DNA of 39,949 nucleotides from Alphaproteobacteria bacterium (GTDB lineage: Bacteria > Pseudomonadota > Alphaproteobacteria > UBA6615), in assembly GCA_018666195.1 (NCBI GenBank), contig JABJAG010000042.1, positions 1 through 39,949 of the forward strand, read 5' to 3'. Under the pieces are notes generated by a model. That model was not told the origin of the DNA. It searched no databases and saw nothing but the letters and a program-made list of their open reading frames with translations. Position 1 is the stretch's first letter. The number at the start of each line of letters is the position of its first letter. The translations under genes and the position numbers were made by a program. Below, one piece after another: positions 14,091-30,232 of this stretch.

Positions 14091-14661
14091 GTTTGGGTGA
14101 TTGGTCAGGTCATCCGACGAAATTTTCGTGTTTTTTTATCGATTCGACCTTTTGACCAGTTGCGGGCTTGGCCCTGTCACGCTATCTTCAACTCGCCTTT
14201 CGGGATCGAGAAATAGTAAAACAAAATACTCGGTCGGACGAATTAACATTCAATACGAGAGAAAATTTAACGAGACTGGGAAAATTTAATAAAACCAAGT
14301 ACTTGCGGAGATGTGTGCGGCCAAACGAAGTAAAAACCCGTTAATACCAAGAAATAAAAAGTAATACTTGGTGTAAGAATACGGAATGATGTTGGGGGTT
14401 GGTTGTCACGTTTCTGTCTTCGAGGTTTCATCGGAGTGTTTTCGTTTTGAGTGTTTCTCCGATTTCTCCAAGGGCAGGGGTGGACAGTGGGATGTCCTTC
14501 GGACGTTTTGCCGACGACATTGTGTGTTGTCCAAATGAATTGATTGACGGTGGTCGCGTTGCGCGGTCTCGGTCACACGAATGGTCATGGCGCGTATTAG
14601 GGTTCTTGGCGGAATCACGTGTTGAAAAATAACGAGTTGTGTTTACGGAGTGTTTCGCCAG
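14091..14661. other. AT-rich non-coding region upstream of dnaA
   Basis: These 571 bp hold no credible gene. The stretch 14205-14395 is far richer in A and T than its surroundings. It contains GAAAATTTAA twice (14261-14270, 14280-14289), the 10-bp palindrome CAAGTACTTG (14296-14305), the inverted pair ACCAAG/CTTGGT (14346-14351, 14367-14372), five AATAC words on one strand (14225, 14252, 14343, 14363, 14378), and ACGAAATTTTCGT (14117-14129) before a T-run. GANTC sites lie at 14141 and 14612. No good match to TTATCCACA was found by eye. It may be a long dnaA control region or an origin-like segment; neither is shown. Confidence 0.6.
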
Positions 14662-16101
14662 ATGGGTGAGCAGTGGGGCCAGGCCGACGGATCTTTGACG
14701 GAGCAGTGGACACGGGTGCGCGCACGCTTGCGGTCCGATGTCGGAGATGCTGCATATAACAGTTGGCTCAAGCCGCTGACTCTTGGCGATTTCAACGCCG
14801 GACGTTTGCGCGTGGCTGTCCCGACCCGTTTCATGCGCGACTGGATCGAACAGAATTATGGTCCCCGCCTCGGTGAATTGTGGGCCGATGAGAATGATGG
14901 GGTTAAATCCGTCGAGATCATCGTGGAGCCGACCCAGACAATTATTCAGCCAGCCGGAGCGCCGCCGCGCCAGCCGCTGGCGCAGCGCATCGAGTCAGAG
15001 GCCGCGCCTCGAGGGGCGAATGGCGGCGGTGTGGCTGCCACGAGAGCTGGCGAGGGTGGTGATCCGTCGCTGGAAGATGTGCGTGCCATTATTGATGAGC
15101 GTTTCAAGTTTTCCAACTTTGTCGTCGGGCGCTCGAATGAGCTGGCCCACGCTGCCGCGCGTCGCGTCGGTGAATCCAAGAGTGTCCCGTTCAACCCGCT
15201 GTTCCTGTATGGCGGTGTCGGGCTGGGCAAGACCCATTTGATGCATGCGATTGCATGGCACATCACGGAGCGTGAACCTCAGCGGCGCGTTCTCTATATG
15301 TCAGCCGAAAAATTCATGTATCAGTTCATCCGTGCCCTGCGGTATCGCACCATCATGGACTTCAAGGAGCAGTTCCGCTCAGTAGATGTTCTGATGATCG
15401 ATGACATTCAGTTCATCGCGGGCAAGGATTCGACTCAGGAAGAATTTTTCCACACTTTCAATGCCTTGGTGGACCAAAACCGCCAAATCATCGTGTCCGC
15501 GGACAAGTCTCCGTCTGATCTGGAAGGCATGGAAGAGCGCCTGAAGTCGCGCCTCGGCTGTGGCTTGGTTGCCGATATCCATCCGACGGATTACGAATTG
15601 CGGCTTGGCATTCTGCTGGCGAAGGCTGAGCACGTCGGTGCGGATATTCCCGACAAGGTTCTGGAGTTTCTTGCCCACAAGATCACGTCGAATGTGCGTG
15701 AGCTCGAGGGTGCACTGAATCGGATTGTGGCCCATGCAACGCTTGTGGGCCGTGCGGTCACTTTGGAGACAACACAGGATGTGTTGCACGACCTGCTGCG
15801 CGCCAATGATCGCCGGGTGACCATTGAGGAAATTCAGAAACGCGTGGCTGAGCATTTCAACATTCGTCTCGCCGATATGCATTCGGCGCGTCGGGCTCGT
15901 GCTGTGGCTCGTCCGCGACAGGTCGCGATGTATCTGGCCAAGCAACTGACATCGCGATCGCTGCCGGAAATCGGCCGCAAATTTGGCGGACGCGATCACA
16001 CCACGGTCATGCACGCGGTCAAGAAGGTCGAGGAATTGCGCTCGGCAGATGCGGGATTCAACGAAGATGTTGAGCTGTTGCGCCGCATGTTGGAGATTTG
16101 A
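14662..16101 (+). CDS. dnaA: Chromosomal replication initiator protein DnaA
   Basis: The protein has 479 residues. Domain I is at about 1-90, a Pro/Gly-rich linker at 95-140, then the AAA+ domain with Walker A GGVGLGKT (184-191) and Walker B MIDDIQFI (D247-D248). The C-terminal helix-turn-helix ends with the DnaA signature around SLPEIGRKFGGRDHTTVMHAV. DnaA melts the origin and loads helicase. The ATG at 14662 is preferred, with GGAG 11 bases upstream (14647-14650); a GTG at 14650 overlaps that site. A GANTC site lies about 46 bp before the start. Confidence 0.97.
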   Translation: MGEQWGQADGSLTEQWTRVRARLRSDVGDAAYNSWLKPLTLGDFNAGRLRVAVPTRFMRDWIEQNYGPRLGELWADENDGVKSVEIIVEPTQTIIQPAGAPPRQPLAQRIESEAAPRGANGGGVAATRAGEGGDPSLEDVRAIIDERFKFSNFVVGRSNELAHAAARRVGESKSVPFNPLFLYGGVGLGKTHLMHAIAWHITEREPQRRVLYMSAEKFMYQFIRALRYRTIMDFKEQFRSVDVLMIDDIQFIAGKDSTQEEFFHTFNALVDQNRQIIVSADKSPSDLEGMEERLKSRLGCGLVADIHPTDYELRLGILLAKAEHVGADIPDKVLEFLAHKITSNVRELEGALNRIVAHATLVGRAVTLETTQDVLHDLLRANDRRVTIEEIQKRVAEHFNIRLADMHSARRARAVARPRQVAMYLAKQLTSRSLPEIGRKFGGRDHTTVMHAVKKVEELRSADAGFNEDVELLRRMLEI

Positions 16102-16146
16102 TCCACCGATCGCGTGCTGGTGCCGCGTAAGGCATTGTAATTCAAT

Positions 16147-16158
16147 AGATAATTATCT
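16147..16158. promoter_or_regulatory. 12-bp perfect palindrome downstream of dnaA
   Basis: AGATAATTATCT is a perfect, uninterrupted palindrome in the dnaA-dnaN gap, in an AT-rich patch. It could be a protein site, but no regulator is known to me for it. Confidence 0.35.
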
Positions 16159-16176
16159 CGTTCTCCTGGCGGCGCG

Positions 16177-16192
16177 CAGGCCGAAAGGCCTG
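16177..16192 (+). other. GAAA-loop hairpin in the dnaA-dnaN gap
   Basis: CAGGCC and GGCCTG pair around the stable tetraloop GAAA. There is no U-run, so it is not a typical terminator. It overlaps the -35 region of the candidate dnaN promoter. Confidence 0.45.
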
Positions 16193-16218
16193 ACGAATCA
16201 CCCTGATTCTGCTATAGT
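16190..16218 (+). promoter_or_regulatory. Candidate dnaN promoter
   Basis: CTGACG (16190-16195) and TATAGT (16213-16218) are 17 bp apart (4 of 6 and 5 of 6 matches). Two GANTC sites lie within the spacer and at its edge (16195-16199, 16205-16209). The leader to dnaN would be about 120 nt. Confidence 0.45.
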
Positions 16219-16256
16219 CAATCACTGTCAGAATTTTCACGGATTCAGCGGGATTC
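16195..16256. promoter_or_regulatory. Cluster of four GANTC methylation sites before dnaN
   Basis: GAATC-ACCCT-GATTC (16195-16209) and GATTC-AGCGG-GATTC (16242-16256) are two GANTC-N5-GANTC pairs whose starts are 47 bp apart. GANTC is the target of the cell-cycle methylase CcrM in alphaproteobacteria, and such sites near promoters can give GcrA- or methylation-dependent timing. The function here is inferred. Confidence 0.55.
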
Positions 16257-16345
16257 CGGCGATTTCCTGAAGAGTCTTCCGGGTTGCTCCGGGATATTCA
16301 AAATCTCCGCCGAACACCGCTCCGGGATGAAGAGGAACAAGAAGA

Positions 16346-17464
16346 ATGAAGCTGACGATCGAGCGCGCGACCCTTCTCAAGGCATTGGCCCATGTGCAAA
16401 GCGTGGTGGAGCGTCGGAATACAATTCCGATCCTTGCGAATGTTTTGCTCGATGGGCAGGACGGCGCATTGACACTTACGGCCACCGATATGGATCTGGC
16501 GATCACAGAGACGGTGACAGCAGAAATTGGCCAGGCGGGTGCGACAACGGCACCGGCGCACACGCTGTATGACATTGTGCGCAAGCTTCCTGACGGCGCA
16601 CAGGTGGAAATTGAAACGGACGCATCTGCAGATCAGTTGCTGATCCGGGCGGGTCGTTCAAAGTTTAATCTGGCCACCTTGCCGGTCGAAGATTTTCCAA
16701 CCATGAGTGGCGGCGATTTGCCGAATACATTTTCGCTTGAAGCTGAAGAGTTGCGCACCCTTGTGGATCGCACCCGGTTCGCGGTTTCAACCGAGGAAAC
16801 CCGCTATTATCTGAACGGTATTTATCTGCATGCTGCTGAGGACGAGGGCGGGGTGATGTTGCGCGCTGTAGCAACGGACGGGCATCGATTGGCCCGGGTG
16901 CAGTTGCCCATGCCATCAGGTGGCGCAGACATTCCTGGCGTTATCGTACCGCGCAAAGCCATAGGCGAATTACGAAAGCTGATTGATGAGACCACGGACC
17001 CGGTTGAAATTTCACTTTCGGACACCCGTATTCGCATGAATTTCGACAATGCCGTGCTGACGTCAAAACTGATCGACGGGACATTCCCAGATTACGAGCG
17101 CGTCATTCCCACAGGGAACGACAAGGTTTTGTCGGTGGACCGTGGAACGTTCGCTCAGGCCGTGGATCGCGTTTCGACTATTTCGTCGGAAAAAAGCCGC
17201 GCCATTAAACTTGCCGTCGGCAACGGTCTGCTGACCCTTTCGGCCACCAGTGCTGAAAATGGTAGCGCGACTGAGGAACTCGAAGTGGGTTTCGAACACG
17301 ATACGATCGAGATCGGATTCAACTCGCGTTATCTTTTGGATATCACCGCGCAGATCGAGAATGACAACGCCGAGTTTGTGTTTGCGGACGCGTCATCTCC
17401 GACCATCGTGCGCGATGGCGGCGATATGAGCGCGCTTTACGTGCTTATGCCGATGCGCGTTTAG
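16346..17464 (+). CDS. dnaN: DNA polymerase III sliding clamp (beta subunit)
   Basis: The protein has 372 residues, the normal length, with three clamp domains. It starts MKLTIERATLLKALAHVQSVVERRNTIPIL and ends ALYVLMPMRV, both hallmarks of DnaN. It forms the ring that keeps replicative polymerase on DNA. It lies 244 bp after dnaA and 6 bp before recF, so dnaN-recF are likely co-transcribed. Confidence 0.97.
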   Translation: MKLTIERATLLKALAHVQSVVERRNTIPILANVLLDGQDGALTLTATDMDLAITETVTAEIGQAGATTAPAHTLYDIVRKLPDGAQVEIETDASADQLLIRAGRSKFNLATLPVEDFPTMSGGDLPNTFSLEAEELRTLVDRTRFAVSTEETRYYLNGIYLHAAEDEGGVMLRAVATDGHRLARVQLPMPSGGADIPGVIVPRKAIGELRKLIDETTDPVEISLSDTRIRMNFDNAVLTSKLIDGTFPDYERVIPTGNDKVLSVDRGTFAQAVDRVSTISSEKSRAIKLAVGNGLLTLSATSAENGSATEELEVGFEHDTIEIGFNSRYLLDITAQIENDNAEFVFADASSPTIVRDGGDMSALYVLMPMRV

Positions 17465-17470
17465 GCGCGC

Positions 17471-18685
17471 ATGGCCCGGACTACCACCTCACCGGTTCTC
17501 GATAACGGATCCGTCCTGCCTGGATATGGCGCGCGCGCGCTAACTTCTCATGTCTCCCGCCTCGACCTGACTGGATTTCGCAACTACGCGGCTTTGCGTC
17601 TGGATGTTGCTGCAAGCCCGGTCGTTTTGACGGGTGCGAATGGTGCGGGCAAAACCAATTTGCTTGAAGCTTTATCATTCTTTGCGCCAGGTCGTGGGAT
17701 CCGGAAGGCTCCATTGCCCGAGGTTGCTCGATTGTCCGGTGGTGTCTCGGACGGCGGCTGGGCGGTTGCTGCACAAATTGACGGCCCGGATGGTCTGGTG
17801 TCTTTGGGCACCGGACTTGAGGCGCGTGCCGAAGGTGGTGCTGCGCGACGGTCTGTACGCATCGACGGTGAGCCAGCGCGTGGCCAGGCGGCCTTTGCCG
17901 AATATCTTTGCGTTGTCTGGCTGACTCCGGACATGGATCGTTTGTTCATGGAGGGCGGTTCTGCGCGGCGTCAGTTTGTGGATCGAATGGTTTATGGCTT
18001 TGACGCCGAGCATGCCCGGCGTCTGGCGACTTATGAACAAGCTATGCGCGGACGTCAGCGATTGTTGCGGGACAATGTTGGAGATTCAGCTTGGTTGTCG
18101 GCTGAAGAGGAGACAATGGCCGCAACCGGAGTTGCTCTTGCAGCAGCCAGGCGTGAGGTCGTTGCACGACTGGATGCTGCCATTGCTGAAGAAGAAGATT
18201 TGCGCGAAGCGTCATTTCCGCGGGCAAGTTTGACCTTCAAAGGTGAAGTTGAAGCATGGCTGGATACTGGCCCGGCACTGGAAGCTGAAGATCGTCTTCG
18301 AGCGACTCTTGCAGCAGGTCGAGCACGCGACAGTGAGGCAGGCCGCGCATTGCACGGCCCCCATCGAAGTGACCTTGTTGTGCATCATCGCGGTAAGGAG
18401 ATGGCCGCATCCTTATGCTCGACAGGTGAGCAAAAAGCTTTGCTGATTGCTATCGTTCTGGCCCATGCGCGCCTCTTGGGACTGGCGCGTGGTGCAGCCC
18501 CGGTGATCTTGCTTGACGAGGTTGCGGCCCATCTCGATGAAGGCAGGCGGTTCGCGCTCGCCGAACGTATTCTGGCACTTGGTGCGCAGGCCTGGTTGAC
18601 CGGCACCGATACCCGCCTGTTCGAAGCTTTCGACGGGCAGGCTCAAACATTTGAAGTTTCATCCGGCAGCGTGCGTCAAATCTGA
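17471..18685 (+). CDS. recF: DNA replication and repair protein RecF
   Basis: This SMC-like ATPase has 404 residues. Walker A is GANGAGKT (55-62), the ABC signature is in STGEQKALLIAIVLAHA and Walker B is VILLDEVAAHLDEGRR. With RecO and RecR it loads RecA at gaps. The N-terminus has about 28 residues before the usual SRLDLTGFRNYA start, so translation might begin later, but no better start with a ribosome site is evident. Confidence 0.95.
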   Translation: MARTTTSPVLDNGSVLPGYGARALTSHVSRLDLTGFRNYAALRLDVAASPVVLTGANGAGKTNLLEALSFFAPGRGIRKAPLPEVARLSGGVSDGGWAVAAQIDGPDGLVSLGTGLEARAEGGAARRSVRIDGEPARGQAAFAEYLCVVWLTPDMDRLFMEGGSARRQFVDRMVYGFDAEHARRLATYEQAMRGRQRLLRDNVGDSAWLSAEEETMAATGVALAAARREVVARLDAAIAEEEDLREASFPRASLTFKGEVEAWLDTGPALEAEDRLRATLAAGRARDSEAGRALHGPHRSDLVVHHRGKEMAASLCSTGEQKALLIAIVLAHARLLGLARGAAPVILLDEVAAHLDEGRRFALAERILALGAQAWLTGTDTRLFEAFDGQAQTFEVSSGSVRQI

Positions 18686-21175
<2,490 letters not shown>

Positions 21176-29933: not shown

Positions 29934-30232
29934 GAGGTGATCAGGGTTGCGATGCCCGCGATCATCACGGGCCAGGCCACAACGGGACTGGCGAATGCGC
30001 GCATGTGGCGGCCTTGCGGTACCACGCCAAACAGATGAAACAGACCCGCCAGAATGCCCAGAACAATCACTCCTGCATTGAGCTTTTCGGGCATGGCCAT
30101 CGCGTGGCCTGTGATGAAGGAAAAACCAAACACCGCGATGATCGAGGCGACAATCAGTACAGCCGAGATGATTCGAGGAATCATTGTCGGAGAATCGGGG
30201 TTTCCCAGCGGGGAGGCAGGTTCAGCCGGCAT
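29930..30232 (-). CDS. Three-helix membrane protein in the cobalamin operon, unknown
   Basis: The protein has about 100 residues. Three hydrophobic helices are visible: IISAVLIVASIIAVFGFSFI, NAGVIVLGILAGLFHLFGVV and VVAWPVMIAGIATLI. Between the last two is a conserved-looking loop VPQGRHMRAFASP. Histidines at GHAM, FHLF and GRHM could contact a metal, but this is speculation. It overlaps cobA by 11 bp and cobB by 4, so it is firmly inside the operon. It does not look like CbtB, CbiN or CobD. The start at 30232 has no strong ribosome site; an ATG at 30184 is possible. Confidence 0.7.
   Translation of the reverse strand: MPAEPASPLGNPDSPTMIPRIISAVLIVASIIAVFGFSFITGHAMAMPEKLNAGVIVLGILAGLFHLFGVVPQGRHMRAFASPVVAWPVMIAGIATLITS

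Follow-up and report, generated by a model that had tools for sequence, protein, structure and literature searches.

The dnaN promoter and its GANTC sites

Does a dense cluster of GANTC sites in front of dnaN place replication genes under methylation control, and which of its sites matter? In the 39,949-bp stretch of DNA analysed here (the window; its source genome is a draft of 285 contigs), four GANTC sites were found within 62 bp, at 16195, 16205, 16242 and 16252, as the preliminary description had reported. They form two GANTC-N5-GANTC pairs of equal 5-bp spacing, and a TATAGT -10 element (16213–16218), preceded by the TG of an extended -10, was indeed located between the pairs. GANTC is depleted in the window (98 sites vs a dinucleotide-shuffle mean of 185.6), and its real background is one per 408 bp, not the one per 256 bp previously taken as the chance rate. 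A Poisson estimate of 0.04 such clusters per window marks this density as unusual. In 400 kb from the congener G004, one four-in-62-bp cluster and four N5 pairs were detected, the latter in line with neighbouring spacings, and the spacing histogram of this DNA gave no genome-wide preference for N5. A whole-genome pair search returned 517 GANTC pairs within 30 bp. Elsewhere in the window, four GANTC were grouped in 106 bp (2625–2730) and three in 27 bp (30170–30196), both groups within mechanically listed ORFs.

The cluster is in the 244-bp dnaA-dnaN intergenic region (16102–16345, plus strand, from the ORF list), comprising a promoter and a leader. On the same strand, dnaA (14650–16101, 483 aa) is the upstream neighbour, and dnaN, for the DNA polymerase III beta clamp (16346–17464, 372 aa), is followed by recF (17471–18685, 404 aa) and gyrB (18713–21175, 820 aa). 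The short gaps, 6 bp between dnaN and recF and 27 bp between recF and gyrB, make a dnaN-recF-gyrB operon likely.

Scanning of 16080–16400 gave a sole sigma-70-like promoter, with the -35 hexamer CTGACG (16190–16195), a 17-bp spacer and the -10 element TATAGT. The hexamer is a weak match to TTGACA and reads NTGNCG in 20 of the 22 family members described below; the extended -10, TG C TATAGT (16210–16218), is kept as TGnTA in 22/22 and as TGnTAnAnT in 19/22. The first GANTC (GAATC, 16195–16199) lies in the -35 to -10 region of this promoter, predicted by consensus match, and has one base, its own first, in common with the -35 hexamer; the second (GATTC, 16205–16209) occupies the latter part of the spacer. 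Pair 1 thus sits on the -35 and spacer, and pair 2 (GATTC-N5-GATTC, 16242–16256) and a fifth GANTC (GAGTC, 16272–16276) are downstream of the -10, in the leader.

One GANTC site is conserved in the family

The search covered sixty genomes, of which 24 belong to the family of the window (its own genome included). All but two of these 24 gave a dnaN match; G010 and G016 had none and were set aside, and L064–L067 were left out as duplicates of L033, L035, L038 and L042; the 22 loci cover eight of ten genera. One GANTC, that at 16195, is conserved across all 22 family genomes examined. In each of them a GANTC stood exactly 10 bp before TG-N-TA upstream of dnaN, where dinucleotide-shuffled versions of these 300-bp regions gave an expectation of 0.09 in 22 for GANTC-N10-TGNTA, and 1.1 in 22 for GANTC-N13-TA without the TG anchor. 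Alignment of the rows used GANTC-N13-TA as its anchor; all 22 satisfied that pattern, so that none was dropped.

On the dnaN tree, some inner nodes of which are weakly supported, the four fixed GANTC columns showed no change at all, whereas 107 flanking columns changed 6.9 times on average and at least 2 times each. The N column changed twice, from A to C, with GANTC retained, and only A or C was found there in the 22 loci. The TG and TA columns of the -10 were as fixed as those of GANTC. On the minus strand, CGAATCA at 16195 matches YGAKTCK, the extended motif of GcrA (PMC7987155). A fit to this motif was seen at the conserved position in 20/22 members (exceptions L052 and L058), which are related and so do not amount to 22 independent cases, and in 17 of all 98 GANTC in the window.

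CcrM and GcrA homologs and a model for the promoter

The absence of ccrM from the genome had been named beforehand as grounds for giving up methylation control; a CcrM homolog is present. Its ORF encodes 368 aa with N6_N4_Mtase and RAMA domains, and the best NCBIfam match was CcrM at 642 bits, below the equivalog cut-off of 830; from their sequences, the neighbouring genes look like rnhB and mutY. A gcrA homolog scored 128 bits with Pfam GcrA (cut-off 26.9) and 115 bits with NCBIfam GcrA, below the equivalog cut-off of 280. The two NCBIfam cut-offs may be tuned to Caulobacter relatives. A ccrM match was obtained in 22/24 family genomes (fragmented or incomplete in G001, G002, G005 and G017; none in G020 and G021), as was a gcrA match (absent from G008 and G016); the four genomes lacking one or the other are 61–87% complete.

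We consider it probable that PdnaN is a sigma-70 promoter with a CcrM methylation site at the -35/spacer junction, assisted by GcrA and probably serving dnaN-recF-gyrB. Since ccrM is present, methylation of the conserved GANTC is very likely; action of GcrA there is likely. In the cell, CcrM would methylate GAATC at 16195–16199; GcrA, docked on sigma, would bind the methylated site and would help RNA polymerase to open a promoter with a good extended -10 and a poor -35, the presumed outcome being activation rather than repression. If recF and gyrB are cotranscribed with dnaN, the amounts of clamp and gyrase would track the methylation state and the GcrA level through the cell cycle, and a cell-cycle timed dnaN-recF-gyrB operon is plausible. 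As the site was kept in 22/22 loci, production of the clamp, perhaps also of gyrase, is probably tied to a methylation-based cell-cycle clock. Of the control by methylation and GcrA proposed in the preliminary description, the part that stood comprises the ccrM and gcrA homologs, the promoter site and a conserved GANTC; the twin pairs did not stand, and the timing by hemimethylation suggested there is a hypothesis.

GcrA has been reported to form complexes with sigma-RNAP and to raise RNAP affinity and opening rate at methylated promoters (PMC7403470); its binding preference is for full over hemi- over no methylation, and on ctrA P1 it covers the -35 region (PMC3667746). In Caulobacter, start sites with a GANTC between -10 and -35 are activated at 40–60 min (PMC4287350), and dnaN and gyrB, silent in swarmer cells, are transcribed as replication starts (PMC1175088). 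Loss of CcrM misregulates a set of genes in which those with a conserved GANTC are enriched (PMC3973325), and conserved GcrA targets include gyrB in Caulobacterales and ccrM in many orders (PMC7987155). Points counted against a GcrA/CcrM reading of PdnaN include the following: a GANTC occurs up to 50 bp upstream in only 31% of GcrA-enriched cell-cycle start sites of Caulobacter (PMC4287350); Brevundimonas GcrA has no extended-motif preference except a slight one for C before GANTC, and replication genes are not universal GcrA targets outside Caulobacterales (both PMC7987155); and the NCBIfam scores of both homologs are below cut-off.

CcrM methylation might instead act directly on binding of RNA polymerase or sigma at the -35 junction, GcrA not being needed, so that methylation or hemimethylation alone changed promoter strength. 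The one-base overlap with the -35 hexamer would suit such an effect, and in Agrobacterium methylation lowers activity of the gcrA promoter, an effect that persists in engineered E. coli lacking the regulators of alphaproteobacteria (PMC11514494). However, an N base that is only A or C in 22/22 and flanks that fit the GcrA motif in 20/22 are more than methylation requires, and we hold this explanation to be unlikely.

dnaN promoters outside the family

Among 84 non-family dnaN loci, 57 had one extended -10 by the rule used and the other 27 were left out. In these 57, the extended -10 TGnTATAnT was accompanied by a GAAA-N3-CTT-like box over the -35, ~27 bp before TG (A in 77% at -26 and in 82% at -25, T in 93% at -19 from TG, frequencies inflated by the close relationship of many of the 57 loci to each other). 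The window has this arrangement at 16183–16218. As the box and the extended -10 are common to non-family loci, the dnaN promoter seems, by this comparison, to be older than its GANTC.

The exact GANTC-N10-TGNTA geometry was present in 3/84 loci (L051, L054 and L115) vs 0.1 expected, and the geometry without TG in 5/84 vs 2.2 expected. Of the nine dnaN loci recorded as Reyranella, eight had no GANTC in the dnaA-dnaN gap, and all nine genomes had a strong ccrM match; outside the family as a whole, such a match was found in 45/50 genomes. The dnaN-promoter site is fixed in the family and sporadic elsewhere. A link of the site with ccrM presence was also sought, but almost every genome compared has ccrM, which makes the comparison uninformative.

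Recurrence of the extended -10 and box far beyond the family, mostly without GANTC, indicates that other constraints act on the dnaN promoter. The CGAATC block could accordingly have been kept for another transcription factor or a sigma requirement, methylation being incidental. Three observations make this distinctly improbable. In the 57 non-family loci, the four positions after the first G have consensus frequencies of only 0.35–0.58; six of the 40 GANTC near these promoters are at -16 to -13 from TG, a range chosen after the data had been seen, where ~1 was expected (three are at exactly -15); and within the family the N base changes and GANTC stays.

The remaining GANTC sites

The preliminary description had singled out the twin pairs, with spacing in relatives as a check. 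When compared in relatives, the pairs were found to be lost. The second site of pair 1 (16205) was present in 5/22 loci (L032, L033, L034, L045 and L046) and pair 2 at its exact N5 spacing in 2/22 (L032 and L037). The first site of pair 2 was at the same offset in 6/22 (L032, L033, L035, L036, L037 and L042), and in L035 the second followed at N4. The YGAKTCK motif was fitted by 16195 and by 16205 (TGATTCT, plus strand), and not by 16242, 16252 or 16272. Over the 22 genomes, 17 leader GANTC were observed vs a shuffle mean of 17.4 (572 of 1000 shuffles reached the observed number). The genome of the window has three vs 1.5 expected, and its genus 11 vs 6.9, a number reached by 70 of 1000 shuffles; this genus-level excess is not convincing.

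These counts bear on the idea that the pairs, their sites one helical turn apart, form a cooperative unit around the start site. The only two N5 pairs of the window are both in the dnaN promoter and leader, pair 1 is an inverted repeat with a motif fit at both sites and recurs as a spacer pair in genus g7 (L045 and L046), and within the window's genus the first site of pair 2 is retained by five of six members. Poor conservation of the pairs and leader counts at shuffle level nevertheless led us to reject the pairs as a unit, pair 2 also being without a GcrA motif fit, and we give a cooperative unit very little credence. The four GANTC sites other than 16195 are mostly incidental, accessory at most, and the first site of pair 2 may have a minor role at the genus level. 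That the whole cluster is a chance accumulation without function is the least credible reading of all: pair 2 and 16272 do behave as chance over the family, and looser clusters lie inside ORFs (e.g. the four GANTC at 2625–2730), but the 22 of 22 at 16195 far exceed the shuffle expectations with or without the TG anchor, and chance is disfavoured for that site.

GANTC at other genes of the family

Within the family, dnaN and ccrM show GANTC conservation, and dnaA and gcrA do not. Upstream of ccrM, a GANTC was found at -29 in all 11 readable stretches (L231, L214–L222 and L226) and at -76/-77 in ten of the 11, with varying N base; seven of 18 stretches had been left out since the first 30 residues gave no match. 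The conserved GANTC at -29 therefore places GANTC under selection in the family. The GANTC-N13-TA geometry was seen in none of the 11 readable ccrM upstream regions, which implies a different architecture for any ccrM promoter there.

The upstream regions of dnaA and gcrA were considered as further conserved sites, and conservation was absent from the 21 loci of each (G007 was left out for dnaA and G012 for gcrA). Some GANTC occurred within 260 bp upstream of dnaA in 6/21 family loci, and within 300 bp upstream of gcrA in 6/21, at scattered places. A GANTC at 14612–14616 in the window, 38 bp before the dnaA start, is common to only 2/21 family loci; a methylation site at dnaA is thus not conserved in the family.

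A genome-wide promoter class with the TG-anchored geometry was not supported, GANTC-N10-TGNTANNNT giving two matches vs seven for a reversed control. The pattern TGNCGANTC-N13-TANNNT was found at dnaN in 18/24 family genomes. Its single match in the genome of the window was at dnaN; the reversed control also had one, so the rarity of the pattern is no enrichment. Without TG, GANTC-N13-TA arises by chance too, for example 5' of dnaA in the window.

Relation to known systems and evolutionary meaning

The mechanism proposed for PdnaN is already known; as far as the literature search went, its dnaN target in this lineage is new. The promoter resembles the GcrA/CcrM sigma-70 promoters of Caulobacter crescentus (ctrA P1 and mipZ, among others) in having a GANTC at or next to the -35, a YGAKTCK fit, ccrM and gcrA homologs and a replication or cell-cycle target gene. 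It differs from them in that the target is dnaN, with recF-gyrB behind, in an uncultured family, in that the GANTC keeps a constant distance of 10 bp to an extended -10 throughout eight genera, and in that dependence on methylation and GcrA is a prediction. The gyrB target of Caulobacterales (PMC7987155) belongs to the same replication module; here gyrB comes after dnaN and recF. The interval considered in that work ran from -200 to +100 around each start codon, whereas the present site heads a dnaN-recF-gyrB run, and the word dnaN is absent from the main text of the paper. The Caulobacter dnaN and gyrB promoters of PMC1175088 likewise belong to replication genes, which in Caulobacter are under cell-cycle transcription; there, a core promoter sequence with a 13-mer between -10 and -35 is described, and GANTC, CcrM and GcrA are absent from the text. 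A description of a GANTC-controlled dnaN promoter was not found in the literature, which is weak evidence of absence, as most subscription papers were outside the search.

One account of its origin is that the family put a pre-existing, widespread dnaN promoter (extended -10 and GAAA/CTT box) under the methylation clock by fixing a GANTC at the -35. The supply of clamp, RecF and GyrB would then be licensed by methylation, and that of dnaA and gcrA would not, and a few further lineages would have taken, or retained, this step with the GANTC at almost the same place. We regard the case for and against this account as evenly balanced. If it is true, the wiring is unlike that of Caulobacter, where transcription of dnaA and ctrA responds to methylation (PMC4287350), the genes compared within the family being dnaN, ccrM, dnaA and gcrA. 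With ccrM in 45 of the 50 non-family genomes, yet the dnaN-promoter site fixed only in the family, the locus exemplifies regulon rewiring. Candidate targets of GcrA/CcrM now include dnaN, together with recF-gyrB, in a lineage for which no cell-cycle data were found. An eye-catching cluster has been reduced to one base-precise site, conservation indicating which site counts.

Other features of the dnaA-dnaN region

An origin of replication in the dnaA-dnaN gap was unsupported, DnaA boxes being few or absent: TTATNCACA with at most one mismatch was absent from the 340 bp preceding this genome's dnaN, and 3/22 family members had one copy each. No Rfam match reached the gathering threshold in the window, and no LexA-type repeat GTTC-N7-GTTC, mentioned in PMC7987155, was seen in its sequence on inspection by eye. 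A simple scan gave no intrinsic terminator between dnaA and the promoter. A perfect hairpin, CAGGCC-GAAA-GGCCTG (16177–16192), overlaps the -35 and is not followed by a T tract; it is largely kept in the window's genus. In L058, a GC-rich hairpin and a T run 5' of the promoter resemble a dnaA terminator. An A-rich, TTGAAATA-like stretch (16135–16155) lies 40–60 bp 5' of the conserved GANTC; it is moderately conserved in the family and is possibly an UP element.
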